Assembly (NCBI GenBank): GCA_028287445.1
Contig: JAQBPQ010000222.1
Span: forward strand, 1-32,494
Source: Cohnella sp.
GTDB taxonomy: Bacteria; Bacillota; Bacilli; Paenibacillales; Paenibacillaceae
DNA length: 32,494 bases
Direction of reading: 5' to 3'
Positions within the stretch are counted from its first letter, which is position 1. The number at the start of each line of letters is the position of its first letter. The notes under the pieces are model-generated. The model was given only the letters and a program-made list of their open reading frames with translations. It searched no databases and was not told the DNA's origin. The translations under genes were made by a program, and so were the position numbers. Of this stretch, positions 1-14,262 are shown one piece after another.

Positions 1-705
1 ACGATGCCGCCAGAAATATCCAAAATGGTCAAATCGCTGCTGGTTAATCCAGTAAAAGTAGAAATCATTCCGGAGTTTACTGCTGTGGAGAGGATAAAGC
101 AATCTATTTATTTGGTAGATAAGGGAAATAAGCAAAATCAATTGAATCACCTTCTACAAGATAAATCCATTGCTTCGGCACTGGTGTTTACCCGTACAAA
201 GCATGGCGCTGACCGCGTTGTGCGCGAACTGACTAAAGTGAAAATTTCCGCTCAGGCCATTCATGGAAACAAATCCCAAAATGCCCGCCAGCTTGCATTG
301 AGCAATTTCAAGAGCGGCGTAACGCGAGTGTTGGTAGCGACGGATATCGCAGCAAGAGGAATCGATATTGAGGAACTTTCTCATGTGATCAACTTCAATC
401 TCCCTAATATTCCAGAAACCTACGTTCATCGAATTGGCCGTACCGGTAGAGCAGGACTGAGCGGGATCGCAATCTCCTTTTGCGAATTTGAAGAAATTCC
501 GTATCTCAAGGATATTGAGAAATTGATCGGCAAGACGATTCCCGAAGTGAAAGACCATCCCTATCCGATGCTGAGTACAGCTCAGACTTTAAAAGCGGAA
601 GGAACGTCGACAACAGCAGTCTTAAAACCTGCCAAATCCAAGGTAAACCCGATGCCCAAGCCTAAGTCCGAGTGGTTTAAAAAACGAAGTAAATCAAGCA
701 GATAA
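1..705 (+). CDS. DEAD-box ATP-dependent RNA helicase, C-terminal part (5' end outside window)
   Basis: This is the C-terminal RecA-like domain of a DEAD-box RNA helicase, which unwinds or remodels RNA in the cytoplasm (ribosome assembly, mRNA turnover, cold adaptation). The frame is open from base 1. The first visible residues, T-MPPEI, fit the sequence right after the SAT motif (motif III), so the whole first RecA domain lies upstream. Visible motifs in order are ALVFTRTK (motif IV region), TDIAARGID (motif V) and [10 protein letters not shown] (motif VI, with the arginine finger). The protein ends in a short basic Lys/Arg/Ser-rich tail of about 30 residues, typical of RhlE/CshA-like helicases and probably RNA-binding. 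An intrinsic terminator follows directly. The subfamily (RhlE, CshA or DeaD) cannot be fixed from this half. Confidence 0.93.
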
Positions 706-725
706 CTTTAGATTCGATGGATTAG

Positions 726-755
726 GACCTTGGAGACAACTTCAAGGTCTTTTTT
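726..755 (+). terminator. Intrinsic terminator after the helicase gene
   Basis: GACCTTG-type arms at 726-732 and 743-749 pair around a 10-base loop and run directly into a T tract (750-755). It lies about 20 bases after the helicase stop and separates that gene from the hut leader. Confidence 0.75.
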
Positions 756-756
756 G

Positions 757-786
757 TTGACGGGTTCGGCTCAACAATGATAGATT
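757..786 (+). promoter_or_regulatory. Candidate sigma-A promoter for the hut/ABC operon
   Basis: TTGACG at 757-762 (5/6 match to the -35 box) is followed after 18 bases by TAGATT at 781-786 (4/6 match to the -10 box). Transcription would start near 793, about 80 bases before the UAG triplets. An alternative -10 is CATAAT at 849-854 (5/6), which lacks a good -35 box but would start the RNA just before the triplets. Either would drive the ABC importer and, by readthrough, hutP and the rest of the locus. Confidence 0.4.
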
Positions 787-791
787 AAAAA

Positions 792-826
792 GTGAACAAT
801 ATTTTAACAATTTGTGAACATTTTCA
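792..826 (+). promoter_or_regulatory. GTGAACA direct repeats and weak cre-like site in the hut leader region
   Basis: GTGAACA occurs at 792-798 and again at 814-820, 22 bases apart, about two helical turns, so a dimeric protein could contact both on one DNA face. The second copy lies in TGTGAACATTTTCA (813-826), which matches 9 of 11 fixed positions of the CcpA cre consensus TGWAANCGNTNWCA but lacks the central G. Carbon catabolite repression of hut is known in Bacillus subtilis; a role here is an inference. Confidence 0.25.
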
Positions 827-873
827 ACCATCAACTCAGATGCTCTTACATAATCGCTAGAGTTCCGAAGGTT

Positions 874-890
874 TAGTTTATAGTGAATAG
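874..890 (+). promoter_or_regulatory. Predicted HutP RNA-binding site (three UAG triplets in 7-nt register)
   Basis: TAG occurs at 874-876, 881-883 and 888-890, giving UAG-N4-UAG-N4-UAG. As I recall, this is the RNA motif recognised by one face of the Bacillus subtilis HutP hexamer. A further TAG lies at 858-860. The triplets end one base before a large terminator hairpin (891-958), the geometry expected of HutP antitermination. A hutP gene lies 2.9 kb downstream in the same direction. The spacing is seen directly; binding is inferred. Confidence 0.65.
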
Positions 891-958
891 AAAATCGGAG
901 CAAGAAAAGTGAATGGCCGCAGCTTAAGCTGTCTCGTTTACTCTGTTCCGATTTTTTT
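891..958 (+). terminator. Leader terminator before the ABC importer, probably HutP-controlled
   Basis: A long hairpin is visible. The outer arms 891-902 and 944-955 pair over 12 bp with one G-U pair. A middle helix pairs 908-913 with 937-942. The apex is the palindrome CAGCTTAAGCTG (920-931). T's run from 952 to 958. The first gene starts only 67 bases further on, so the hairpin lies in the 5' leader, not at the end of the upstream gene, which has its own terminator at 726-755. With the adjacent UAG triplets it forms a candidate attenuator. Confidence 0.7.
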
Positions 959-1024
959 ATTTGCATAAAGGAAGTCTTTTGTATGAGAAAGTCAGCGACT
1001 AAACTTTTGGGAGGAAAAACAGAG

Positions 1025-2062
1025 ATGCGAAAAAAGAGTCAGATTATCTTGTTGTTGGTTTTCTTGTTGGTAATGTTAAGCGCCTGTGGAGGCAAAAATT
1101 CGCCGTCGGGATCGGCATCAGGAGCGCCATCAGGAACGGCTTCCGGGAACAATGCGTCGGCACAGCCGGTCTCGTTTTCTTACGGCATTTCGAGCTGGAT
1201 TGGATATGCTCCTCTGTACTTGGCGAAGGAGAAAGGAATCTTCGAGAAGAACGGGATTGATGTCAATTTAGTCAAAATGGAAGGTGCCGCAGACCGTAGA
1301 ACCGCATTGGCGGCCAACCGGATTCAGGGATATTCCACAACGGTGGATTCTCATGTCATGACGGCTGCAAGCGACGTTGCGGTTGTGCAGGTGGCGGCGC
1401 TTGACGATTCGTTTGGCGGGGATGGCATCGTTGCCAACAAAGAGATTAAAAGCTTGAAGGATCTAGTTGGCAAGAGTGTTGCGGTTGAGACCGGAGGAGG
1501 AGCAAGCTTCTTCTGGTTCCTTTACTTGCTGCAGACGGAAGGAATCAAATATGACGACATCAAAGTTCAAAACCTGAGCGCAGGCGATGCGGGCGCGGCT
1601 TTTGTAGCCAAAAAAGTGGATGCCGCGGTGACCTGGGAGCCGTGGCTTACGAAAGCTAAAAATACCGATTTTGGCAGCGTGCTGATTTCAAGCGATAAGA
1701 CGCCCGGTGTCATCGCCGATACTATCGGAATGCGCAAAGATTTTATCGAGAAAAATCCTCAAGCGGTAAAAGCGTTTGTAAAATCATGGTACGACGCACT
1801 GGACTATTACAAGAACAACCAAGACGAAGCCATAGCCATTATGGCCAAATCAATGGATCAAACGGCAGATGAATTTAAAGCCGCCTTAACCGGAGTTCAA
1901 TACTATGACCAAGCCAAAAATAAAGAATATTTCGGAACGAAGGAAAAACCGGGCAAATTGCGTGAACTGACGGAACTCAGCTCCAAATTGTGGATGCAAT
2001 ACAAATTGATCGACAAGCAGCCGAACATTGACGATTTAATTGATTATTCTTTTATTCAATAG
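1025..2062 (+). CDS. ABC transporter substrate-binding lipoprotein, NitT/TauT (NMT1/SsuA-like) family
   Basis: This is the extracellular solute-binding lipoprotein of the importer encoded by the next two genes. I chose ATG 1025 because GGGAGG at 1009-1014 precedes it by 10 bases; an in-frame ATG at 983 would only add a non-signal-like extension. From 1025 the protein has 345 residues, with a basic-hydrophobic signal and lipobox LSAC (lipidated Cys about residue 21), then a Gly/Ser/Ala-rich linker. The mature part has family features: SSWIGYAPLYLAKEKGIF near the N-terminus, then GKSVAVETGGGASFFW and DAAVTWEPWL. Relatives bind sulfonates, nitrate or thiamine pyrimidines. Its place at the head of a hut locus, behind a HutP-like leader, suggests histidine, urocanate or a related imidazole compound. 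That substrate is an inference. Confidence 0.88.
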   Translation: MRKKSQIILLLVFLLVMLSACGGKNSPSGSASGAPSGTASGNNASAQPVSFSYGISSWIGYAPLYLAKEKGIFEKNGIDVNLVKMEGAADRRTALAANRIQGYSTTVDSHVMTAASDVAVVQVAALDDSFGGDGIVANKEIKSLKDLVGKSVAVETGGGASFFWFLYLLQTEGIKYDDIKVQNLSAGDAGAAFVAKKVDAAVTWEPWLTKAKNTDFGSVLISSDKTPGVIADTIGMRKDFIEKNPQAVKAFVKSWYDALDYYKNNQDEAIAIMAKSMDQTADEFKAALTGVQYYDQAKNKEYFGTKEKPGKLRELTELSSKLWMQYKLIDKQPNIDDLIDYSFIQ

Positions 2063-2075
2063 GGAGAGACATTCT

Positions 2076-2951
2076 ATGAAGAACGGGCTTGCAGGGAAGC
2101 ACATCGCCGAACAGGCGTCTCCACTCTTGGATCCGGGAATGTCGAACCAAAAGAAACGGAAACGGAGAAGATGGATAGAGCCGCGAGGCTCTATCTCTCT
2201 TCAGTTATATCTCGCACTGAGCGTAATAAGTTTTGTGCTTATGCTTGCCGGATGGTCGGCTTTGACGTATACAGGTGTGATCGATCCGCTTTTTTTGCCT
2301 AGTCCGTCTCGAATCATTCAATCGGGGTTCAAACTTTTCACGGAGTTCCATTTTATCGGCGATATTTTGGCAACCGTTCTCCGGGTTTTTGAGGGTTTTA
2401 TCTTAGCTTTGATCCTAGGGGTGATCCTTGGTCTTTTGATCGGCACGTTTAAGGTCGTCGAAGCTTTTTTCGAACCGATGATCTCTTTCATTCGATACAT
2501 GCCGGTTTCTGCGTTCATTCCGCTTTTTATTTTGTGGATCGGCGTAGGAGACTCGGAGAAAGTATTGGTTATCTTTTTCGGAAGCATTTTTTCGATTATT
2601 TTGATGGTTGCGGTAGAAGTGGGAACGGTGCGCAGCGAGCTGCTGGAAGCCTCTTTTACGCTCGGGTCGACTCCATTCGGTGTTCTGCGTTCCGTGATCC
2701 TGCCGGCCTCGATGCCCGGCATTATGGAAATCGCCCGTCTCGTGCTCGGATGGGCATGGACGTATATCGTCGTGGCGGAGCTTGTTGCGTCATCTTCGGG
2801 CATCGGGCACGTGATTATCGAATCCCAGCGAATGCTGCGGACCAGCAACATCATATTTGGCATTCTGACCATCGGTATTCTGGGTCTGATAACCGATTTG
2901 GTTCTGAAACTGATCATTCGAAAAATGTTTCCATGGAGCTATGGGAGGTGA
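2076..2951 (+). CDS. ABC transporter permease, SsuC/TauC-like
   Basis: This is the membrane-spanning subunit of the NitT/TauT-type importer. ATG 2076 is preferred because AGGGAGAG (2061-2068) sits just upstream, right after the lipoprotein stop; earlier in-frame starts overlap the previous gene. The product has 291 residues: about 45 mostly polar N-terminal residues rich in Lys/Arg, then about six hydrophobic segments. The coupling (EAA-like) loop is visible as EASFTLGSTPFGVLRSVILPAS, which contacts the ATPase. The neighbouring SIRYMPVSAFIPLFILW-type stretch is typical of the SsuC/TauC branch. The gene ends a few bases before the ATPase start, implying coupled translation. Substrate specificity comes from the binding protein. 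Confidence 0.9.
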   Translation: MKNGLAGKHIAEQASPLLDPGMSNQKKRKRRRWIEPRGSISLQLYLALSVISFVLMLAGWSALTYTGVIDPLFLPSPSRIIQSGFKLFTEFHFIGDILATVLRVFEGFILALILGVILGLLIGTFKVVEAFFEPMISFIRYMPVSAFIPLFILWIGVGDSEKVLVIFFGSIFSIILMVAVEVGTVRSELLEASFTLGSTPFGVLRSVILPASMPGIMEIARLVLGWAWTYIVVAELVASSSGIGHVIIESQRMLRTSNIIFGILTIGILGLITDLVLKLIIRKMFPWSYGR

Positions 2952-2955
2952 TGGC

Positions 2956-3741
2956 ATGCAGCCGTTGGTCGAAATTCGCAGCTTAACCAAGACGTTTGCG
3001 GGAAAGCGGAGAAATCCGGATGTACTTGCAGTGGACACGATTGATCTGAATATCATGAAGAATGAGTTTATCACGATTCTCGGCCCTTCCGGGTGCGGCA
3101 AATCCACCCTCCTGCGAATCGTTGCCGGACTTGAGGAAAAATCGTCAGGAAACATCTATTTGGACCAGCAAGAGATCCACGGCCCTTCATCCGACCGGGG
3201 CATGGTATTCCAGGCATACTCTTTGTTCCCTTGGTTGAACGTGCAACAGAATATTCAATTCGGATTAAAGAATAAAAAAATGGAACCCAAAAGACGCAAT
3301 GAAATCGCCCGGGATTACATCGAATTGGTCGGACTTGGCGGTTTCGAGAGTCATTACCCCAAACAGCTTTCGGGCGGAATGCAGCAGCGCGTGGCGATCG
3401 CCCGGGCTCTGGCCAATGATCCGGAAGTGCTGCTGATGGATGAGCCTTTCGGGGCTTTGGACAACCAAACACGCCTTCTGATGCAGGAGCTGCTCCTTGA
3501 TGTATGGGAGAAGACCAAAAAAACGGTTTTATTCATCACACACGATGTGGAGGAATCGATTTTTCTTGCAAACCGCGTGCTGGTTATGACGGCGAGACCG
3601 GGACGAATTAAGGCGGACATTCCGATTGAGATCGAGCACCCGCGCTCTTATCATCTGAAAGTCGATCCGCGTTTTCTGAATTATAAGAAGCAATTGACTG
3701 AACTCATTCGTGAGGAAACTCTCAAAGTCATGCGCGAGTGA
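2956..3741 (+). CDS. ABC transporter ATP-binding protein, SsuB/TauB-like
   Basis: This ATPase energises the importer at the cytoplasmic face of the membrane. ATG 2956 is chosen because GGGAGGTG at 2943-2950 lies 5 bases upstream; ATGs at 2941 and 2951 are too close to or inside that site. The 261-residue protein has Walker [10 protein letters not shown] (about residues 43-51), a Q-loop in [11 protein letters not shown], signature [15 protein letters not shown], Walker [12 protein letters not shown] and the switch His in ITHDVEES. The VMTARPGRI stretch after the switch is typical of the nitrate/taurine/sulfonate group. A binding protein, permease and ATPase in this order form a complete importer. 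The gap to hutP is about 50 bases with no terminator seen, so hutP is probably co-transcribed. Confidence 0.92.
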
Positions 3742-3792
3742 ACGTTAGGGCAACAAAATCACACCTACACCATTAGAGAAGGGATACACACA

Positions 3793-4254
3793 ATGCACAA
3801 TTCCAACGGCGTACCATTCCCGATCGGTAAATTATCCATTCTTCTTGCGGTGCTTCAAGATCATGAATGGAGACAGGTTGTGGAACAGGATTTAACTTCG
3901 AAGGGATTTCGCTTCACCATCGGCCGAGTGGGGGCGATGGATATGATTAAAGTGGTGGCGGCGATCGAGACGGCTGCCAAGAACAACCGGATCATCGACA
4001 GTGAACAATACCGTGAGGTTCACGCCCTGTATCATGCCATTATTGAAGCGATTCAGAGTGTCGGCCGGGGTGTGGTGCAATTTGGTGAAATTTTGCGTAC
4101 GGTCGGGCTTACCTTCTCCATCGTCCGGGGCGAAATGACCGGCACAGTGCTGCATGAAGGCGAATGGATCGCTGTCTGCGTTTACGGCACCATTGGTGCG
4201 CCCAAAAAAGGATTCGAACATGAAGCCATAGGATTCGGGTTTAATCATATCTAA
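3793..4254 (+). CDS. hutP: HutP, L-histidine/Mg-dependent RNA-binding antiterminator of the hut operon
   Basis: HutP binds L-histidine and Mg2+, assembles as a hexamer and wraps UAG/NAG-triplet RNA so that a leader terminator cannot form. The 153-residue product (Bacillus subtilis HutP has about 150) shows strong family features: IGKLSILL near the N-terminus, MDMIKVVAAIETAAKNN, the YREVHALYHAIIEA helix, LRTVGLTFSIVRG, WIAVCVYGTIGAPKKGFEHEAIG and the conserved C-terminal NHI. His77, His81 and His143 correspond to the metal/histidine-binding His73, His77 and His138 of the B. subtilis protein. GAAGGGAT lies before ATG 3793. Two UAG-containing terminators flank it, one before the importer (874-958) and one before hutH (4292-4353), so it may control uptake and catabolism and its own synthesis. 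Confidence 0.96.
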   Translation: MHNSNGVPFPIGKLSILLAVLQDHEWRQVVEQDLTSKGFRFTIGRVGAMDMIKVVAAIETAAKNNRIIDSEQYREVHALYHAIIEAIQSVGRGVVQFGEILRTVGLTFSIVRGEMTGTVLHEGEWIAVCVYGTIGAPKKGFEHEAIGFGFNHI

Positions 4255-4291
4255 GGTTTTATCCTTTGAAGTATTTCGTTTGTTTGGTGTA

Positions 4292-4318
4292 TAGGCCATT
4301 TAGCGACTAGTGATATAG
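4292..4318 (+). promoter_or_regulatory. UAG-triplet cluster before the hutH attenuator, probable HutP target
   Basis: TAG occurs at 4292, 4301, 4308 and 4316, immediately before the terminator at 4320-4353. The spacers are 6, 4 and 5 bases, so only one pair is in exact seven-base register. In Bacillus subtilis the HutP target lies between hutP and hutH; this cluster sits in the same place. Spacing is less regular than in the leader site at 874-890. Confidence 0.6.
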
Positions 4319-4319
4319 A

Positions 4320-4353
4320 AGCCGGTACCCTCATGTTTGGTATGGGCTTTTTT
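4320..4353 (+). terminator. Attenuator terminator between hutP and hutH
   Basis: AGCCGGTACC (4320-4329) pairs with GGTATGGGCT (4339-4348) with one mismatch and one G-U pair around a 9-base loop, followed by six T's (4348-4353). It lies 65 bases after the hutP stop and about 30 bases before the hutH start. With the UAG triplets just upstream it matches the Bacillus hut layout, where HutP plus histidine prevents this hairpin. Confidence 0.8.
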
Positions 4354-4380
4354 CATTACTCTGGAAGCAGGTGGGGCGAG

Positions 4381-5922
4381 ATGCGCCAAACAGTGGAAAA
4401 CACCATAACGGTGAATGGGAAGTCATTAACAATTGAAGATGTCGTAAGGGTGGCCCGGCTCGGAGCCAAAGTGGAGCTGGGTGAGGAAAGTCTTCAAAAG
4501 GTGAAGCGTACCCGTGAATATGTGGAAAAGCTGCTGACGGAGAAAAAAGTGGTGTACGGGTTGACCACCGGCTTCGGCAAATTCAGCGACACTTATATTT
4601 CCAGCGAGGATGGCAAGTTGCTGCAGCTGAATTTAATCCGCAGCCACGCGTGCGGACTCGGAAACCCGTTCCCGGAAGAAGTCGTCAGGGCCATCCTGCT
4701 GCTTCGGATCAATGCCTTATCGCTCGGATACTCCGGCATTCGGCCGGAAACGATGCAGACGATGATCGATATGCTGAACAAAGGGGTTGTTCCTGTCATC
4801 CCGGAGAAAGGCTCGCTCGGAGCAAGCGGAGACTTGGCCCCTCTTTCGCATTTGGCGCTCGTGTTGATCGGCGAAGGCGAAGCTTATTATCAAGACGCCA
4901 AAATGCTCGGAGGCAAAGCAATGGCCGCTGCGGGAATTGCGCCGATCACGCTGGAGGCCAAAGAGGGGCTGGCGCTGATCAACGGGACGCAGGTCATGGC
5001 CGCGGTCGGCACGATCGCCTGCTGGGATGCGCTTCAATTGGCCCAATGGGCCGATTGCACGGCAGCCTTGACTTGCGAGGCATTGCTGGGTGTGCGGGAT
5101 GCTTTCGATCCCTTGACACATCTCATCCGTCCCCATCAGGGCCAAATCCAGGTTGCCGATAACATCAGGCGCCTCACCTCCGAAAGCCGGTTGATGACCG
5201 ATCAGGGAGAGCTTCGGGTACAGGACGCATACTCGCTCCGCTGCATCCCACAAGTGCATGGCGCGAGCAGGGACGCGTTGGTGTATATCGCAGAAAAGCT
5301 GGAGATTGAAATCAACTCGGCGACCGACAATCCGCTCATCTTTACGGAGGAAGAGCGTGTCATCTCGGGCGGTAATTTCCATGGACAGCCGATTGCGCTG
5401 GCGATGGACCATCTCGCGATCAGCGTAGCCGAGCTGGCCAACATTGCGGAACGGCGCATCGAGCGGCTGGTTAATCCGCATTTGAACGAGAATTTGCCGC
5501 CTTTTCTGACGAAAAAGGGGGGACTGCAATCCGGCTTAATGATCGCCCAGTATGCGGCGGCTTCCGTTGTCTCCGAGAATAAATCGCTGGCCCATCCGGC
5601 GAGCGTTGATTCGATTCCCTCCTCGGGGAATCAGGAGGATCACGTCAGCATGGGGACAATTGCCGCCCGAAAAGCCAAACAAATCGTGGAGAATGCCTAT
5701 TCGGTATTGGCGATCGAGCTCATTTGCGCCGCACAGGCCATTGATTTCCGCGATCCTCTGCTGCTCGGCAAAGGAACGAAACAGCTATACCACCGCTGTC
5801 GGGAAAAGGTGACGTTCGTGGAAGAGGATCGCGTGCTTTCGAACGATTTTCATACGGTTGCGGAATGGATGAAAAGCGCGGAAATGCTGGATGAATTATG
5901 TACGCTCGTTTCTCTTCAATAA
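4381..5922 (+). CDS. hutH: Histidine ammonia-lyase
   Basis: HutH removes ammonia from L-histidine to give trans-urocanate, the first step of histidine catabolism, in the cytoplasm. The 513-residue length fits the family (about 500-510). The autocatalytic MIO cofactor forms from Ala-Ser-Gly at residues 148-150 within GSLGASGDLAPLSH. Other family landmarks are YGLTTGFGKF, NLIRSHACG, ALINGTQVM, QDAYSLRCIPQVHGA, SATDNPLIF, SGGNFHGQP and SSGNQEDHVSMG. I chose ATG 4381, preceded by AGGTGGGG at 4369-4376. An in-frame ATG at 4333 lies in the loop of the attenuator hairpin and cannot be the normal start. hutU follows after 24 bases with its own AGGAGG site. Confidence 0.97.
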   Translation: MRQTVENTITVNGKSLTIEDVVRVARLGAKVELGEESLQKVKRTREYVEKLLTEKKVVYGLTTGFGKFSDTYISSEDGKLLQLNLIRSHACGLGNPFPEEVVRAILLLRINALSLGYSGIRPETMQTMIDMLNKGVVPVIPEKGSLGASGDLAPLSHLALVLIGEGEAYYQDAKMLGGKAMAAAGIAPITLEAKEGLALINGTQVMAAVGTIACWDALQLAQWADCTAALTCEALLGVRDAFDPLTHLIRPHQGQIQVADNIRRLTSESRLMTDQGELRVQDAYSLRCIPQVHGASRDALVYIAEKLEIEINSATDNPLIFTEEERVISGGNFHGQPIALAMDHLAISVAELANIAERRIERLVNPHLNENLPPFLTKKGGLQSGLMIAQYAAASVVSENKSLAHPASVDSIPSSGNQEDHVSMGTIAARKAKQIVENAYSVLAIELICAAQAIDFRDPLLLGKGTKQLYHRCREKVTFVEEDRVLSNDFHTVAEWMKSAEMLDELCTLVSLQ

Positions 5923-5946: not shown

Positions 5947-7608
5947 ATGAGCCAAAGAACGCAAACCACGATCCGTGCGCCGCGAGGCACCGAGCTCAAC
6001 ACGAAAGGCTGGGTTCAGGAGGCCGCGCTGCGGATGCTGATGAACAATCTGGATCCGGATGTCGCCGAACATCCCGATAAGCTCGTGGTTTACGGAGGCA
6101 TCGGCAAAGCCGCCCGCAACTGGGAAAGCTTCGATGCCATCGTCAGCACGTTAAAGAATTTGGAGGATAACGAAACGCTGCTGGTTCAATCAGGCAAACC
6201 GGTTGCGGTATTCCGCACGCACAAAGACGCTCCGCGTGTTCTGCTGGCGAATTCCAATCTCGTTCCCGCCTGGGCGAATTGGGAACACTTCCGCGAGCTT
6301 GACCGTAAGGGGCTGATCATGTACGGACAAATGACCGCCGGAAGCTGGATTTATATCGGCAGCCAAGGGATCGTTCAGGGAACGTATGAGACGTTCGCCG
6401 AATGCGGGAGACAGCATTTTGGCGGAAGCCTGAAGGGTACGATCACCGTCACGGCCGGGCTTGGAGGAATGGGTGGTGCTCAACCGCTCGCGGTCACAAT
6501 GAACGACGGAGTGGTGATCGGCATTGAGGCCGACCGCAGCCGAATCGAGAAGCGGATTCATTCGCGTTATTGCGACATGCTCGTGGAGTCGCTGGAGGAT
6601 GCGATTTCGCTTGCCCTCGATGCGAAAGAAGAAGGACGTCCGCTGTCGATCGGGCTGCTCGGCAATGCGGCGGATGTACTGCCGCAAATGATAGAGCGCG
6701 GTTTTATCCCGGATATCATTACGGACCAAACCTCTTCCCACGATCCGCTGAACGGCTACTTGCCTGTCGGTTATTCGCCGGAAGCCGCTGCCAAGCTGAG
6801 GGAGGAAGATCCCGACGCATATATCAAGTTGGCCAAGGCAAGCATCGTCCTTCACGTGAACGCCATGCTGGAAATGAAACGCAAAGGCGCAATCGCCTTC
6901 GATTACGGCAACAACATCCGGCAGGTTGCCTTTGATGAAGGGGTGACGGATGCATTTGACTTCCCTGGCTTCGTCCCGGCCTATATTCGTCCCCAATTTT
7001 GCGAAGGGAAAGGGCCGTTCCGGTGGGTAGCTCTGTCTGGAGATCCGGAAGACATTTATAAAACCGACGAAGTGATCATGCGTGAATTTGCCGACAATGA
7101 GGGCTTGTGCAAGTGGATTCGTATGGCTCAAGAAAAAATTGCGTTTCAAGGCCTCCCGGCCCGGATCTGTTGGCTCGGTTATGGCGAAAGGGCCAAATTT
7201 GGCCGGATCATCAATGATATGGTGGCTTCCGGCGAGCTTACTGCGCCGATCGTCATTGGCCGCGATCATTTGGATGCAGGCTCCGTCGCATCGCCCAACC
7301 GGGAAACCGAAGCGATGAAGGACGGCAGCGACGCCATCGCCGATTGGCCGATCTTAAACGCGCTGATCAATACGGCTTCAGGCGCAAGCTGGGTCTCCCT
7401 GCATCATGGCGGCGGCGTCGGCATGGGATATTCGGTGCATGCGGGGATGGTCGTGGTGGCCGACGGTACCCAGGATGCGGCGGAGCGATTGGAACGTGTT
7501 TTGACGACCGATCCGGGAATGGGTGTCGTCCGACACGCGGATGCGGGCTATGAGCTGGCTGTGCAGACGGCGAACAATAAAGGAATCCGGATGCCGATGT
7601 TAGGCTGA
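5947..7608 (+). CDS. hutU: Urocanate hydratase (urocanase)
   Basis: HutU adds water to urocanate to give 4-imidazolone-5-propionate, using tightly bound NAD+ as an electrophile. The 553-residue product has the usual length. Visible hallmarks are the GKAARNWE start region, [49 protein letters not shown], the NAD-binding glycine-rich [27 protein letters not shown] and the active-site segment [12 protein letters not shown], whose Cys is residue 408 (Cys410 in the Pseudomonas enzyme). [13 protein letters not shown] near the C-terminus is also typical. TAGGAGGTC precedes ATG 5947. The gene is 18 bases from hutI, so the hut genes are tightly packed. Confidence 0.97.
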
Positions 7609-7626: not shown

Positions 7627-8904
7627 ATGATATACATTCGGAATGCTTCCCAAGTCATCACGGTCAGTGGAGCGAGCTCCGTCCCGAAACGGGGCAGTGA
7701 GATGGAACAGCTGCATCTCATTGAAGGCGGCGGGGTTGTCGTTGAAGACAGCTTGATCGTATTTGTCGGCAAAGATGAAGAAGCCCGTCGGTATGTCGAG
7801 CATCACGCCAAAGACAAGGAATTGACGGTCATATCCGCCGATGGGAAAATCGTCACTCCGGGATTGGTCGACCCCCACACCCATGTCGTGTTTGCCGGTT
7901 CGCGGGAATTCGAGTTTAACCTCCGCTTGCAAGGCGCGACATATATGGATATTTTGAATGCAGGCGGCGGCATTTTGTATTCCACCGGAAAAACCCGCGA
8001 GGCTGATGAACAGCAATTATTCGCCGAAACCGAGAAGCGTCTGGATCGCTTTCTCGCGCACGGGGTGACCACCGTCGAGGCCAAGAGCGGATATGGCTTG
8101 CGACTGGAAGACGAAATCAAGCAGCTTCAGGTTGCCCGCAGGCTGGACCATGCACATCCGATCGATTTGGTTTCCACCTTCATGGGAGCCCATGCTGTGC
8201 CGGCGGAATATAAAAGCGACCCGGAAGCGTTCGTCCGCATTGTGATCGAAGAGATGATCCCTGCTGTCTCCCAAGCGGAATTGGCGGAATTTTGCGATGT
8301 GTTCTGCGAGGAAGGCGTATTCACCGTCGATCAGTCCCGGCGTATTTTGGAAGCGGGGTGCAAATGGGGGTTGAAGCCGAAAATCCATGCCGACGAAATG
8401 GTGTCGTTCGGGGGCGCCGAGTTGGCCGCCGAGATCGGCGCCGTCTCTGCAGATCATCTGCTGCACGCTTCCGAAGCCGGCATTCGCGCGATGGCGGAGA
8501 CCGGCGTCGTTGCCGTACTGCTTCCCGGCACAGCGTTCTTCCTCATGGCGAAGCCGGCCGATGCGAGGAAGATGATCGAGGCCGGCGTGCCGGTCGCTTT
8601 GGCCACAGACCGCAATCCCGGCTCTTCTCCGACCGAATCATTACCGTTCATCATGAATCTGGCGTGCTTGACGATGAAGATGACGCCGGCGGAGGTGTTG
8701 ACCGCCTGCACCATTAATGCCGCGCACGCCATTGGCCGGGCCGACCGAATCGGCAGCATCGAAGTTGGAAAACAAGGCGATCTCGTTCTATTTGATGCTC
8801 CCAACTACATGTATTTGCAATACCACTACGCGGTTAATTTGGTCGACACCGTGATCAAAAAAGGGATACCGGTGATTCGGAGCGGAAGAAGGGTCGATTC
8901 ATGA
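7627..8904 (+). CDS. hutI: Imidazolonepropionase
   Basis: HutI opens the ring of 4-imidazolone-5-propionate to give N-formimidoyl-L-glutamate (FIGlu). It is a metal-dependent amidohydrolase; the product has 425 residues (about 420 in Bacillus subtilis). The metal-binding pair is His84 and His86 in TPGLVDPHTHVVFAGSRE. Further motifs are AKSGYGLRLEDEIKQL, STFMGAHAVP, KIHADEM (metal His), SADHLLHAS and ATDRNPGSSPTESL (metal Asp). GGGAAGGAGAG precedes ATG 7627. The stop overlaps the next start (ATGA at 8901-8904), so translation of the M20 hydrolase is coupled to it. The product, FIGlu, sets which enzymes are needed next. Confidence 0.97.
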   Translation: MIYIRNASQVITVSGASSVPKRGSEMEQLHLIEGGGVVVEDSLIVFVGKDEEARRYVEHHAKDKELTVISADGKIVTPGLVDPHTHVVFAGSREFEFNLRLQGATYMDILNAGGGILYSTGKTREADEQQLFAETEKRLDRFLAHGVTTVEAKSGYGLRLEDEIKQLQVARRLDHAHPIDLVSTFMGAHAVPAEYKSDPEAFVRIVIEEMIPAVSQAELAEFCDVFCEEGVFTVDQSRRILEAGCKWGLKPKIHADEMVSFGGAELAAEIGAVSADHLLHASEAGIRAMAETGVVAVLLPGTAFFLMAKPADARKMIEAGVPVALATDRNPGSSPTESLPFIMNLACLTMKMTPAEVLTACTINAAHAIGRADRIGSIEVGKQGDLVLFDAPNYMYLQYHYAVNLVDTVIKKGIPVIRSGRRVDS

Positions 8905-10154
8905 ACACCTTACGCATCAATGCCGCCCGGCTTCAAGACAAGATCCGTCTACTCAGCGCATTCGGGATTAACGATGCCGGAGGACTGGATCGGACGACGT
9001 TCACGCCGGCCGAGCTGGCCGCCCGCGAATGGCTGAAGAATCAGCTGCATCAGTTACGTTTGAGTGTCAGAGTCGACGAAGCGGCGAACATATGGGCCGT
9101 TCGCAACGGGCAGAACGAGCTCCCCTTTATCGTATTCGGTTCCCATATCGACACCGTTCCCAATGGAGGCAAATACGACGGAGCACTTGGGGTCCTGCTT
9201 GCTCTTGAAGTGATGAACGTATTCGAAGAGAACGGCGTCTCCACCCGCCATCCGCTGGAGCTTGTATCATTCAGTGCGGAGGAACCGAACCCGTTCGGAT
9301 TGTCGACGTTCGGCAGCCGGGCCGTATCGGCAAAGATCGGTGCTAAGCATTTGGAAGGCGTGCACGATGACAAAGATCAGCTGTTGACGGATGCGCTGCG
9401 GCTTGCCGGCGGGGATCCGGACCGTTTCGAACAAGCCCGCCGTAAGCCGCAGGAGCTGGCCGCTTTTCTGGAAGTACACATTGAACAAGGAAAACGACTG
9501 CTGCAGCAGGATATTCCGGTTGGCATCGTTACCGCAATCACAGGGATTTATCGGGAAGAGGTGACGGTGGCAGGAGAAGCGAACCACGCCGGAACGACGC
9601 TTATGCGCGACCGCAAAGATGCGCTGATGGCCGCTTCCGAAATCATGCTGGCTTTCGAATCGGTGTGTCGGGATCATCCGGCCGACGAGACGGTCGGCAC
9701 CGTGGGCAAAATCGCGAATTTCCCCAATGCTGCCAACATCATCCCCGAGAAAGTTCAATTCACTTTGGAAATCAGAGGAAAATCCCGGGACGACATCCAA
9801 GAAATCAACAACGAGTGGGACAAACGTGCAGCTGAAATAACGGAGCGAAGAGGAATTCGGTTGGAGAGACGGTTGATTCTGGACCAAGCGCCTGCGGCGA
9901 TGAACCCGCTGGTCATGAGCATTTGTGCCTTGCAATCGCAGCAGTTGGGATATCCCTCCTATCCTCTCGGCAGCATGGCCGGTCATGATGCCGCACATAT
10001 GGCGGCACTGACCCGCGCAGGCATGCTGTTCGTTCCGAGTATTGACGGGAAGAGCCATTGCCCAGAAGAGGAAAGCCGGATAGAGGATATGGAGAAAGTC
10101 GGCAACGTGCTGCTCCACTCGATATTGGCGTTGGACCAACAGTTGGATACCTAG
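8901..10154 (+). CDS. M20-family Zn-dependent amidohydrolase (carbamoylase/allantoate amidohydrolase-like); candidate N-formylglutamate deformylase
   Basis: The 417-residue protein belongs to the M20 hydantoinase/carbamoylase group, whose members cleave N-carbamoyl amino acids, ureidopropionate or allantoate with two metal ions. Visible motifs are GSHIDTVPNGGKYDGALGVL (metal His82, with Asp84 and the metal-bridging Asp of KYDG), SAEEPNPFG (catalytic and metal Glu), LEVHIEQGKRL (metal His), ANHAGTTLMRDRKDAL (dimerisation-domain substrate loop) and SMAGHDAAHMA (C-terminal metal His). Its start overlaps the hutI stop. It sits between HutI, which makes FIGlu, and a HutF-like deiminase that would make N-formylglutamate, and no classical HutG is visible. 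I therefore infer it removes the formyl or formimidoyl group to release glutamate. A plain N-carbamoyl amino-acid hydrolase is the alternative. Family certain, substrate not. Confidence 0.85.
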   Translation: MNTLRINAARLQDKIRLLSAFGINDAGGLDRTTFTPAELAAREWLKNQLHQLRLSVRVDEAANIWAVRNGQNELPFIVFGSHIDTVPNGGKYDGALGVLLALEVMNVFEENGVSTRHPLELVSFSAEEPNPFGLSTFGSRAVSAKIGAKHLEGVHDDKDQLLTDALRLAGGDPDRFEQARRKPQELAAFLEVHIEQGKRLLQQDIPVGIVTAITGIYREEVTVAGEANHAGTTLMRDRKDALMAASEIMLAFESVCRDHPADETVGTVGKIANFPNAANIIPEKVQFTLEIRGKSRDDIQEINNEWDKRAAEITERRGIRLERRLILDQAPAAMNPLVMSICALQSQQLGYPSYPLGSMAGHDAAHMAALTRAGMLFVPSIDGKSHCPEEESRIEDMEKVGNVLLHSILALDQQLDT

Positions 10155-11509: not shown

Positions 11510-12628
11510 ATGTCCACCCCATTATGGCGCCATGATGTGACCAAGCTTGAAACCTACGTACCCGGTAAATCAATAGAAGAAGTAAAAAAACAATACGGTC
11601 TGAGTGAAATTACTCGTCTCGCTTCCAATGAGAACCCGTACGGACCTTCGCCCAAAGCGATCGCCGCAATGCAGGAAGCAGCCTTACAGAGCCACTTGTA
11701 CCCCGAGCCGACCAGCATGGATCTGCGGGCCAAGCTTGGCGGCTTGTACGGGATCGACCCGGGACAGGTACTCGTTTCCAACGGGGCTGACAACGTACTG
11801 ATGCTGATCGGACAAGCTTATATTAATCCGGGTGACGAAGTCGTGTACTGCGTTCCGACTTTCCCGGTATATCGCACCTCGACGGTCATGATGGGAGGTG
11901 TACCGCTTGAAGTTGCTATGACAAGAGATTATAAGTTCGATTTAGACGGGATGCTTGCCCGGATCACAGCCCGAACGAAACTCGTATACATCTGCAACCC
12001 CAACAACCCAACGGGAACGATTGTGGAGTCGGATGACTTGGAAGCGTTCCTGCGGCAAGTCCCGGAACACATCGTTGTTGTATTGGATGAGGTATATATC
12101 GACTTTGTAGCTGTGGAAGGCTACCGGACGGGCATCGAATACATCAAAGCCGGGTATAACGTCATTTCCGTCCATTCGTTCTCCAAACTTTACGGTCTTG
12201 CCGCAGCCAGGATCGGCTATGCCTTGGCCTCTCCGCAAATCCTGGCGCCGCTGCTTGCGGTAAGGGAGCCCTTCCCGGTGAGCCGTATGGCCAATAGCGC
12301 GGCTATCGCTTCGCTGGATGATGTCGAATACCGCCGATTCATTTTGGATACGAATCGCGAGGGAATTCGTCTGCTCCAATCCGAATTGGAGGCGTTGGGC
12401 CTTGAGATACCCGATTCTTACGCCAACTTCCTGTTCATCGATATGAAACGGCCGGCCGCGCCCGTCTGTGAAGCTCTGCTTCAAGCCGGATTCATCGTGC
12501 GTCCCTGCAAGGGATGGGGGTATCCGAATCATATCCGGGTCACGGTCGGAAGCCCGGAACAAAACCAACGTTTCATCGCGGAAATGAAGACGATTTTGTA
12601 CAGATTAGCCGGAAAGGATGAATCATGA
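11510..12628 (+). CDS. HisC-like PLP-dependent aminotransferase (class I/II)
   Basis: A fold-type I, PLP-dependent aminotransferase of 372 residues, closest by eye to histidinol-phosphate aminotransferase. Visible features are RLASNENPYGPSPKA near the N-terminus, YPEPTSMDLRAKLG, VSNGADNVLMLIGQAY, CNPNNPTGT, VVLDEVYIDF (PLP-binding Asp) and the Schiff-base Lys226 in SVHSFSKLYGLAAARIGYA. I chose ATG 11510 because AGGAGGTG (11497-11504) stands just upstream; longer in-frame starts run into hutF. No other histidine-biosynthesis gene is present and it lies inside a catabolic operon, so a biosynthetic role is unlikely. I infer it transaminates histidine to imidazole-pyruvate, with the next gene reducing the product; general aromatic amino-acid transamination is an alternative. 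Confidence 0.88.
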   Translation: MSTPLWRHDVTKLETYVPGKSIEEVKKQYGLSEITRLASNENPYGPSPKAIAAMQEAALQSHLYPEPTSMDLRAKLGGLYGIDPGQVLVSNGADNVLMLIGQAYINPGDEVVYCVPTFPVYRTSTVMMGGVPLEVAMTRDYKFDLDGMLARITARTKLVYICNPNNPTGTIVESDDLEAFLRQVPEHIVVVLDEVYIDFVAVEGYRTGIEYIKAGYNVISVHSFSKLYGLAAARIGYALASPQILAPLLAVREPFPVSRMANSAAIASLDDVEYRRFILDTNREGIRLLQSELEALGLEIPDSYANFLFIDMKRPAAPVCEALLQAGFIVRPCKGWGYPNHIRVTVGSPEQNQRFIAEMKTILYRLAGKDES

Positions 12629-13608
12629 TGAAAAACGGGAAAAAGCTGGTTTGGATCTTGGATGACGAGTGGACCGATCACCTTCTGGAAGAGAAAATTT
12701 ATCATGAGCACGGTTTCGAAGTCAAAGTGACACGAATGGATGCGTTAGCGGAAGATTTGCCGGATTATGCGCCTTATGCGGATGGAGTGGTTGCGCAGGT
12801 GGGGTTTCCTTGCGGAGCGGACCTGATCGAGCAACTGCACATGTGCAAAGCCATTGCCATCTCCGGAGTCGGATTTAATCACGTGGATATAAAAGCCGCC
12901 ACGCAAAAAGGCATCGTTGTGGCGAATGTGCCCGATTACTGCATGGAGGAGGTCTCGGACCATACGGTGGCCCTGATGCTCGCAGTATCCCGAAGGCTGA
13001 TCGCCTACCGGCAAGCAGTGTTGAAAGGGAATTGGGATCCCATGGACACGAAGTCTATTTACCGATTCAAAGATAGGAATGTAGGCCTGCTCGGATTCGG
13101 ACGGATTGCACGGAAAGTCGCGGAGAAGCTGCAAGGATTTGGTGTCCGCATCCAAGCCCACGACGAATACGTATCAGCCGATACGTTTCAGCAATATGGC
13201 GTCACTGCGGTATCCTTGGAGGATCTGCTTCGAAAATCCGATATCCTGAGCCTCCATGTTCCGTTAACTCCTGAAACATCCGAGATGCTCAACTATGAAC
13301 GGATGAAAAGCATGCCGAAAGGAGCAGTGATCATCAATACTTGCCGGGGGGGCGTTATTCGCGAGACGGACTTGCAGGCCCTGATTATAGAAGGACATTT
13401 GGCGGGAGCGGGTCTCGATGTTTTGGCTGTCGAGCCGCCTGGTCCGGATCATCCTTTGAAATCAATGGAGGAAGTGTTGATCACGCCGCATTCCTCATAC
13501 ATATCCGTGGAGTCGGTCAAGGAATTGAAGGAAAGGACTTGCTTGATTGTCATCGATGCCGTGAATGGACACAAACTGTCTTACTCGTTAAATCCGCAAG
13601 TATCGTGA
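12625..13608 (+). CDS. D-isomer-specific 2-hydroxyacid dehydrogenase (hut-linked)
   Basis: A 327-residue NAD(P)-dependent D-2-hydroxyacid dehydrogenase. Members reduce 2-oxoacids to D-2-hydroxyacids or oxidise phosphoglycerate. The C-terminal Rossmann domain shows VGLLGFGRIARKVAEKL. Catalytic residues are the Arg in NTCRGGVI, the Glu in LAVEPPG and the His in ITPHSSY. The start overlaps the aminotransferase stop (ATGATG at 12625), so the two are translationally coupled. The pairing suggests a shared pathway: histidine to imidazole-pyruvate, then to imidazole-lactate, perhaps an overflow route or NAD+ recycling. Sequence alone cannot separate this from other 2-oxoacid reductases. Confidence 0.88.
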   Translation: MMKNGKKLVWILDDEWTDHLLEEKIYHEHGFEVKVTRMDALAEDLPDYAPYADGVVAQVGFPCGADLIEQLHMCKAIAISGVGFNHVDIKAATQKGIVVANVPDYCMEEVSDHTVALMLAVSRRLIAYRQAVLKGNWDPMDTKSIYRFKDRNVGLLGFGRIARKVAEKLQGFGVRIQAHDEYVSADTFQQYGVTAVSLEDLLRKSDILSLHVPLTPETSEMLNYERMKSMPKGAVIINTCRGGVIRETDLQALIIEGHLAGAGLDVLAVEPPGPDHPLKSMEEVLITPHSSYISVESVKELKERTCLIVIDAVNGHKLSYSLNPQVS

Positions 13609-13635
13609 ATATACTTGAACCGGGAGCGGAAAAGA

Positions 13636-14262
13636 ATGCCGTACACATGGAGATTGATTCGGACGCAGGATCAAGAGATAAGCCGATGGCCTGGAGGAGA
13701 AACGACTCAACTGGCCATCTATCCCGAATCGGGAGATTTCCAATCACGGCAATTCAAATGGCGCATAAGTAAAGCAACCGTCGAGCAGGAGGAATCCAAT
13801 TTCACCCCGCTGTCGGGATTCCGCAGGGTGTTGATGGTGCTTGAAGGCCAACTTAAACTGGAGCACGAAGGGCATCACAGGTGCGAGCTGTCGGCATATG
13901 AGCAAGATACATTTGACGGGGGCTGGACAACAAGAAGCCGCGGGCTCGCCTCTGATTTTAACCTCATGTTCTCTGCCGATTGCCATGGTGAACTGAAGGT
14001 TTATTCCGTCACGCAGGGAGAATGGTTAAGCAGGGAAACGCGGATGAACAAACCGGAGCAGCCCGAAATGTGCCGAGTTTTCTATTGTGTTGCCGGTTCG
14101 GTGGAAATGGCGTGTGATCAAGGGGCAAAGGTCAGTTTGGAGGCAGGGGACTTGTTGCTCCTCACGGAACCATCAGGACCCACTGCCGTGGAAATTCAGG
14201 TAGTCCGAGTAGGAAGTGTGCATACCAAGCTGTTGGAAGCCCGGATTTATTATCACTCATAG
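13636..14262 (+). CDS. hutD: HutD family protein (cupin-like regulator of histidine use)
   Basis: HutD is a small cupin-like protein in many hut operons; in Pseudomonas fluorescens it is reported to limit maximal hut expression, though its molecular function is not settled. The 208-residue product shows family landmarks: SRWPGGETTQLAIYPES at the N-terminus, FKWRISKATVEQEESNFTPLSGFRRVLMVLEGQLKL, then the second cupin half with LEAGDLLLL. I chose ATG 13636 because GGGAGCGG at 13622-13629 precedes it by about 6 bases; TTG 13615 in frame is less likely. It is the last hut gene, 27 bases after the dehydrogenase stop. Bacillus subtilis has no hutD, so its presence beside HutP is part of the mosaic character of this locus. 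Confidence 0.85.
   Translation: MPYTWRLIRTQDQEISRWPGGETTQLAIYPESGDFQSRQFKWRISKATVEQEESNFTPLSGFRRVLMVLEGQLKLEHEGHHRCELSAYEQDTFDGGWTTRSRGLASDFNLMFSADCHGELKVYSVTQGEWLSRETRMNKPEQPEMCRVFYCVAGSVEMACDQGAKVSLEAGDLLLLTEPSGPTAVEIQVVRVGSVHTKLLEARIYYHS

Follow-up and report, generated by a model that had tools for sequence, protein, structure and literature searches.

A putative HutP-controlled transcription attenuator ahead of an ABC importer and hutP in Cohnella sp., with related elements at other hutP loci

Results

The stretch of DNA analyzed here (the window, 32,494 nt) comes from a contig of a Cohnella sp. assembly of 3,305,553 bases (3.3 Mb; completeness 78%) and carries, in this order, the end of a helicase gene (1-705), a leader of about 100 nt (about 860-958, + strand), the genes of an ABC importer, hutP, a gap of 126 nt, hutH, hutU and hutI. 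The importer comprises an NMT1/SsuA-like substrate-binding lipoprotein (SBP; 1025-2062; PF09084, 97 bits), a permease (2076-2951; PF00528) and an ATPase (2956-3741; PF00005), all on the + strand. As the preliminary description had it, hutP, which encodes the histidine-responsive antiterminator protein, is found 2.9 kb 3' of the leader (3793-4254, + strand; NF002838, 208.9 bits, cut-off 155), and hutH (4381-5922), hutU (5947-7608) and hutI (7627-8904) follow on the same strand, scoring above cut-off with TIGR01225, TIGR01228 and TIGR01224, respectively. Genes for an M20-type amidohydrolase, a HutF-like amidohydrolase, a HisC-like aminotransferase, a 2-hydroxyacid dehydrogenase and HutD lie 3' of hutI. 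The last three of these, the dehydrogenase being of the D-2-hydroxyacid type, occupy 11570-14262 and might, speculatively, convert imidazole-lactate to histidine.

The hutP product belongs to the HutP family (PF09021, 105.3 bits, cut-off 25) and aligns with PDB entries 1wmq and 4ok9. In the alignment to the PDB match, from which the residues were copied by hand, H77, H81, R102 and H143 of the Cohnella protein occupy the positions of H73, H77, R98 and H138 of B. subtilis HutP, which we take, in numbering and in role, to be the Mg2+/histidine ligands. Judged by its sequence, the window operon encodes a genuine HutP.

The leader had been singled out for three TAG triplets in exact UAG-N4-UAG-N4-UAG register, and these are indeed present at 874, 881 and 888 (TAGTTTATAGTGAATAG; 874-890, + strand). 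This is the only exact TAGN4TAGN4TAG match in the window and also the only one on both strands of the whole assembly; the reversed pattern gave 19+24 matches there, a control that is only rough because TAG is rarer than GAT. The triplet abuts an intrinsic terminator, which our scan placed at 892-954 with a T-run to 958 (+ strand, -26.6 kcal/mol), within a base or two of the 891-958 given beforehand. Two features of a HutP site, namely three N4-spaced NAG/UAG triplets and an intrinsic terminator overlapping or adjoining them, are found in the leader, and no second N4- or N5-spaced NAG triplet lies within 75 nt of it. Three in-register TAGs could in principle precede an ordinary terminator by chance, the terminator serving the helicase gene or stray transcription; such triplets did arise in dinucleotide shuffles of the window, once each in 2 of 100 (mean 0.02). 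However, the helicase gene has a terminator-like hairpin of its own at 724-751, and the comparisons with related loci below argue further against coincidence.

A promoter scan of 600-5000 gave 4 matches vs 4.9 in shuffles, hence no excess, and the nearest + strand match 5' of the leader was weak (757-786, 9/12). Just 5' of the leader, on the minus strand, 813-826 (TGAAAATGTTCACA) resembles a CcpA cre box, if the consensus that we assumed in reading it is right.

Predicted folding of the leader RNA provides two competing structures. The sequence GTTCCGA at 862-868 (+ strand) occurs again, in direct orientation, as the terminator 3' arm (945-951) and is predicted to pair, as the 5' strand of an antiterminator stem, with 895-901, a part of the terminator 5' arm that would in this way double as the antiterminator 3' strand. 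In the minimum-energy fold of RNA 855-910, that is, before the terminator 3' arm is transcribed, this 7-bp stem forms (-10.6 kcal/mol) and encloses the three UAGs. In that fold the first UAG is partly base-paired with the third, and HutP presumably requires single-stranded UAGs, which counts against an attenuator. When RNA 855-960 was folded, the terminator was predicted at -33.7 kcal/mol, compared to -24.8 kcal/mol with the antiterminator forced. Because these folds compete, the position of the triplet would let a bound protein hold the antiterminator until the polymerase has passed.

Many RNA switches share the layout of a leader followed by a terminator, a resemblance that no tool result favored, and the UAGs might be incidental to a T-box, a riboswitch, a leader peptide or a TRAP-like protein acting at this terminator. 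Nor does the SBP fix the importer substrate: members of its family bind taurine, sulfonate, nitrate or pyrimidine precursors, it scored 160.6 bits with TIGR01728, slightly under the cut-off of 163.5, and its relatives in the PDB include proteins named for taurine, sulfonate, nitrate, bicarbonate or pyrimidine precursors. An Rfam scan of both strands of the window, in contrast, gave no family at gathering score, with neither a T-box nor a known riboswitch recognized. RNA 855-960 contains 11 NAGs, of which 6 are (G/U)AG, and even spacing is confined to the three UAGs named above, so that the 11 (G/U)AG repeats of a TRAP-type site are absent from the leader. Moreover, the leader is short, holding the triplet and two competing stems within about 100 nt, and a HutP-negative relative described below (n=1) has lost the middle UAG while keeping hairpin and register. 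Taken with these observations, a switch of another kind is very improbable.

A second HutP-type triplet, UAG-N4-UAG-N5-UAG, lies in the gap between hutP and hutH (4301-4318, + strand; TAG at 4301, 4308 and 4316), which is the position of the HutP antitermination site in B. subtilis. It is followed by a terminator hairpin with T-run (4319-4349, + strand, -13.2 kcal/mol) of the same sequence type as in relatives, and the stem of this mid-operon element is just 3 bp. The assembly contains this N4-N5 pattern three times, and one of the other two copies, L198 (G000:C206:10418-10435, minus strand), likewise has a hairpin and T-run 12 nt behind it. In L198 the triplet stands directly after a TATAAT, and the element precedes a gene that by eye looks like a cation/proton antiporter gene, also in the window's own genome; it is either a chance occurrence or a further target.

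The preliminary description had named UAG spacing in orthologous leaders as a check, and this was run on 394 genomes of the family. Orthologues of the window SBP (E <= 1e-80) were found in three, the window genome (G000), G323 and G324, and in all 3/3 close orthologues the leader has the exact triplet followed by a terminator. All three genomes are HutP-positive, as are 38 of the 394 at E <= 0.001 (37 of them over the cut-off). SBP, permease and ATPase of G323 and G324 are 70-77% identical to those of the window over the aligned parts, and in their leaders, 114-120 nt 5' of the start of the SBP match, TAGCGTTTAGCGAATAG and TAGCTATTAGCGAGTAG are followed by strong terminators. No match to the window hut proteins was obtained within 14-15 kb around these two importers, and each genome has its sole HutP match on a different contig, at a distance of at least about 30 kb as estimated from draft contig positions. 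The orthologous leaders at L123 and L124 show, in our reading, TTGACA/TTGACG-like promoters. Since G323 and G324 keep the leader away from hutP, the HutP-type leader appears to travel with the importer, and this is the main evidence that HutP apparently exerts control in trans as well.

With a HutP profile built from 17 sequences 300 loci were confirmed, of which we named the best 80. To these and the window (81 sequences) we applied a strict rule requiring three NAG spaced by N4 or N5, two or more of them UAG, and a terminator within 25 nt. This gave 80 matches on the hut strand vs 2 on the other strand. Among the best 80 of 300 loci, 50 had at least one match and 49 had one within 3.5 kb of hutP; L082, L085 and L097 were missed by the rule, though a triplet and hairpin are visible there by eye. 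Triplet-plus-terminator elements recur before hutP, importers and hutH across these hutP loci, and 33 of the 80 named loci (best 80 of 300) have a looser triplet in the 300 nt 5' of hutP, vs 28 of 2482 random control stretches of 300 nt. The latter figure illustrates that coincidences at a single site do occur, but the strand bias and the same arrangement before orthologous importers make chance a highly unlikely explanation of the window leader. In a further 17 loci chosen by place (L133-L149; 10 on the same contigs as named loci, 7 new), an element was present before hutP or the importer in 13/17, showing that the upstream element is not universal, and 3' of hutP, before hutH, in 16/17, with L146 lacking both. 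Among the Paenibacillaceae loci examined it is common for hutP to be preceded by a HutP-type element, and the window genome is not special in this respect.

Nearly all of 71 elements compared have a single triplet; a second N4/N5 triplet was found downstream in 2/71 and upstream in 9/71. The third triplet member is CAG or AAG in several elements, which counts against the HutP reading. The longest array was seen in L137 (G304:C1:1655000-1672000, minus strand), where four triplet-plus-terminator elements stand in series (oriented positions 3873, 4488, 7012 and 11280) one each ahead of hutP, of a hutG-like gene with hutI, of an importer with hisD and of hutH, the hutG-like gene being of the arginase family (219.4 bits, under the hutG cut-off of 229.15).

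Eight genomes, six of them Cohnella, gave 60 exact-triplet loci, some overlapping and one set limited to 30 of the matches listed, of which 12/60 had a terminator in range; ten of the 12 were elements of hut or importer genes, and the remaining two, L186 and L198, are due to chance or unexplained. Triplet counts alone in 31 HutP-positive genomes, among the matches listed, were too noisy for reading a regulon. Under a stricter pattern seven of eight genomes were HutP-positive, which is biased support because the pattern was partly derived from loci found; the eighth, G393, is not among the HutP-positives and has no terminator behind its triplet.

We compared the pairing of each upstream flank with its own downstream flank and with those of other elements, using short flanks. 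For 28 non-redundant elements near hutP the mean own pairing was 11.36, compared to a permuted mean of 8.52 and a maximum of 10.66 in 20,000 permutations. Split by place, p was 5e-5 for mid-operon elements (n=20) and 0.0019 for 5' leaders (n=16, non-redundant); these values are not clean probabilities, because the elements are related and part of the signal from common descent survives the swapping of flanks. The stems found include AGCCC/GGGCT, ATAACCC/GGGTTAT, AGCCT/AGGCT, TGTC/GACA, CTCAGC/GCTGAG and AAGCGCA/TGTGCTT, and by this comparison of sequences the predicted antiterminator pairing covaries among relatives. The 28 elements were obtained from the 71 by dropping near-duplicates and elements at least 3.5 kb from hutP, a distance rule that also removed the pre-hutH elements of L032, L035, L042 and L045. 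For the split test the L084 element at 7767 was dropped (its flank is without pairing) and 14 elements were added by hand before removal of near-duplicates. In the L063-type hutP-hutH elements the triplet picked by the rule was kept; the alternative choice pairs better by eye. An earlier wide-flank stem search, using shuffles of each element, was not discriminating, with values below 0.05 in 2/18 pre-hutP, 0/47 pre-hutH and 0/15 other elements. In leaders of the P. auburnensis type (L009/L034), the 5' antiterminator strand apparently lies at or before the likely transcript start in our reading, which counts against the model.

A second, distantly related NitT-type importer (SBP 29-34% identical) occurs in the hutP cluster of Cohnella and two other genera. 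Orthologues of its SBP (E <= 1e-80) were present in 8/394 genomes, and a triplet with terminator precedes the SBP gene in 7/7 HutP-positive genomes (L133, L134, L135, L136, L137, L140 and L145), the third member being AAG or CAG in 4/7. Beside this importer, a histidinol dehydrogenase gene (PF00815) was found in both cases checked, L134 (7586-8851) and L137 (5746-7020, minus strand), suggesting histidinol as an imported nutrient. The preliminary description had proposed that histidine switches on its own uptake, which we can only infer, because HutP binding, histidine-dependent readthrough and histidine as the substrate are all hypothetical here. The hisD gene in the second-type operons, together with the HisC-like aminotransferase and hydroxyacid dehydrogenase of the window, rather hints at histidinol or imidazole-lactate/pyruvate than at histidine.

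The HutP-negative relative is G319, which is outside the 38 HutP-positives and in which a search with the window HutP was empty, an answer that alone proves little. The leader before its SBP (L158, G319:C11) keeps a terminator hairpin (-18.5 kcal/mol), a flanking stem and the 17-nt register, and it reads TAG-GTAT-TTG-TTGA-TAG, the middle UAG having become UUG. This single case has the appearance of decay after loss of HutP.

Discussion

HutP-linked conservation and the recurrence of triplet plus terminator in this comparison support the HutP reading, and with it the antitermination leader of the preliminary description; in our judgment the window leader is very probably a HutP-controlled transcription attenuator. 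Without histidine, the nascent RNA would refold into the terminator, and few polymerases would get as far as the importer genes and hutP. In the presence of histidine and Mg2+, HutP would bind the three UAGs and hold the antiterminator, preventing the terminator 5' arm from joining the terminator hairpin, so that the polymerase could read the three importer genes and hutP. The second attenuator at 4301-4349 would then gate hutHUI. Because hutP sits behind the first terminator, HutP would be its own activator, raising its own synthesis after initiation by leaky readthrough. Where a relative has the importer at a separate locus, HutP would reach the importer leader in trans, and HutP apparently acts on several targets, in cis and in trans.

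A different outcome of binding has also to be weighed, namely that HutP represses, giving negative feedback on hutP and the importer, or affects RNA decay or translation and not termination. Seven Bacillaceae loci (L084, L085, L095, L097, L103, L106 and L107) bear on this, having UAG triplets about 50-115 nt 5' of the HutP match and near the presumed mRNA start; L084 has as many as five UAGs there, and no terminator was detected 3' of these pre-hutP triplets. Since such hutP mRNAs have no obvious terminator, HutP may have a role other than antitermination in Bacillaceae, and the triplets possibly reflect autoregulation by another route. The window triplet, however, is directly before a terminator and inside the predicted antiterminator stem, as in the hutP-hutH elements, and for this leader we regard a different outcome as improbable and keep to HutP-dependent antitermination.

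Two further observations concern genes outside the usual hut set. In L084 (Alkalihalobacillus sp. BA299), a near copy at 7767 of the locus' own hutH element (10480) stands before a glutamate dehydrogenase-like gene (8143-9441); glutamate is the end of histidine breakdown. In L108, which is filed as Pseudomonas sp. ISL-84 and whose content looks Bacillaceae, a HutP-type triplet with terminator at 4015, some 6 kb 5' of hutP, precedes an OppA-like peptide importer gene.

More broadly, we lean toward the view that HutP of Paenibacillaceae is the hub of a histidine-responsive RNA regulon built from serial single-triplet attenuators, up to four in one locus, that have also been carried to distant importers and perhaps, in Bacillaceae, to the glutamate dehydrogenase-like gene and the peptide importer, with the terminator before hutP giving positive feedback. 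If this is true, that feedback could render histidine use switch-like, and a HutP-gated terminator before hutP makes the question of positive feedback directly testable. The movable and repeated attenuators would moreover be a natural variant series from which the RNA requirements of HutP could be learned, HutP targets would become predictable from sequence, and an orphan importer family would be tied to histidine-like compounds.

The proposed mechanism resembles that of BglG, LicT and SacY in that a protein is predicted to stabilize a hairpin sharing a strand with the terminator. The UAG triplet lies inside a large hairpin here, whereas the hairpin is read at two bulges there. HutP is unrelated to these proteins, and no PTS phosphorylation is known to be involved. 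The trp leader bound by TRAP is similar in having an amino-acid-activated protein oligomer, spaced NAG triplets and a leader controlling termination; in contrast to our three N4-spaced UAGs and predicted readthrough, TRAP binds 11 (G/U)AG repeats and promotes termination (PMC4027176).

The closest known system is HutP of B. subtilis, where the module is given as hutHUIGM (PMC7732839) and HutP directly binds terminator sequence repeats (PMC8934654). In the literature searched, which was available in part and covered few subscription papers, HutP has so far been described for this one B. subtilis operon, and no target beyond the hut operon was found; the available text of a comparative study of histidine regulation in Gram-positive bacteria from 2022 contains 0 occurrences of hutP (PMC9413887). 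The window shares with that system the protein family, NAG/UAG triplets at an intrinsic terminator and an element between hutP and hutH. It differs in having one triplet where the B. subtilis site is reported to have two clusters spaced by 20 nt (PMC7430163), and since the two-cluster feature is absent we do not assign the window element to the B. subtilis type but treat it as a variant form of HutP antitermination. It differs further in the additional element before the importer and hutP, and in that importers, and perhaps other genes, appear as putative targets, some of them away from hut.
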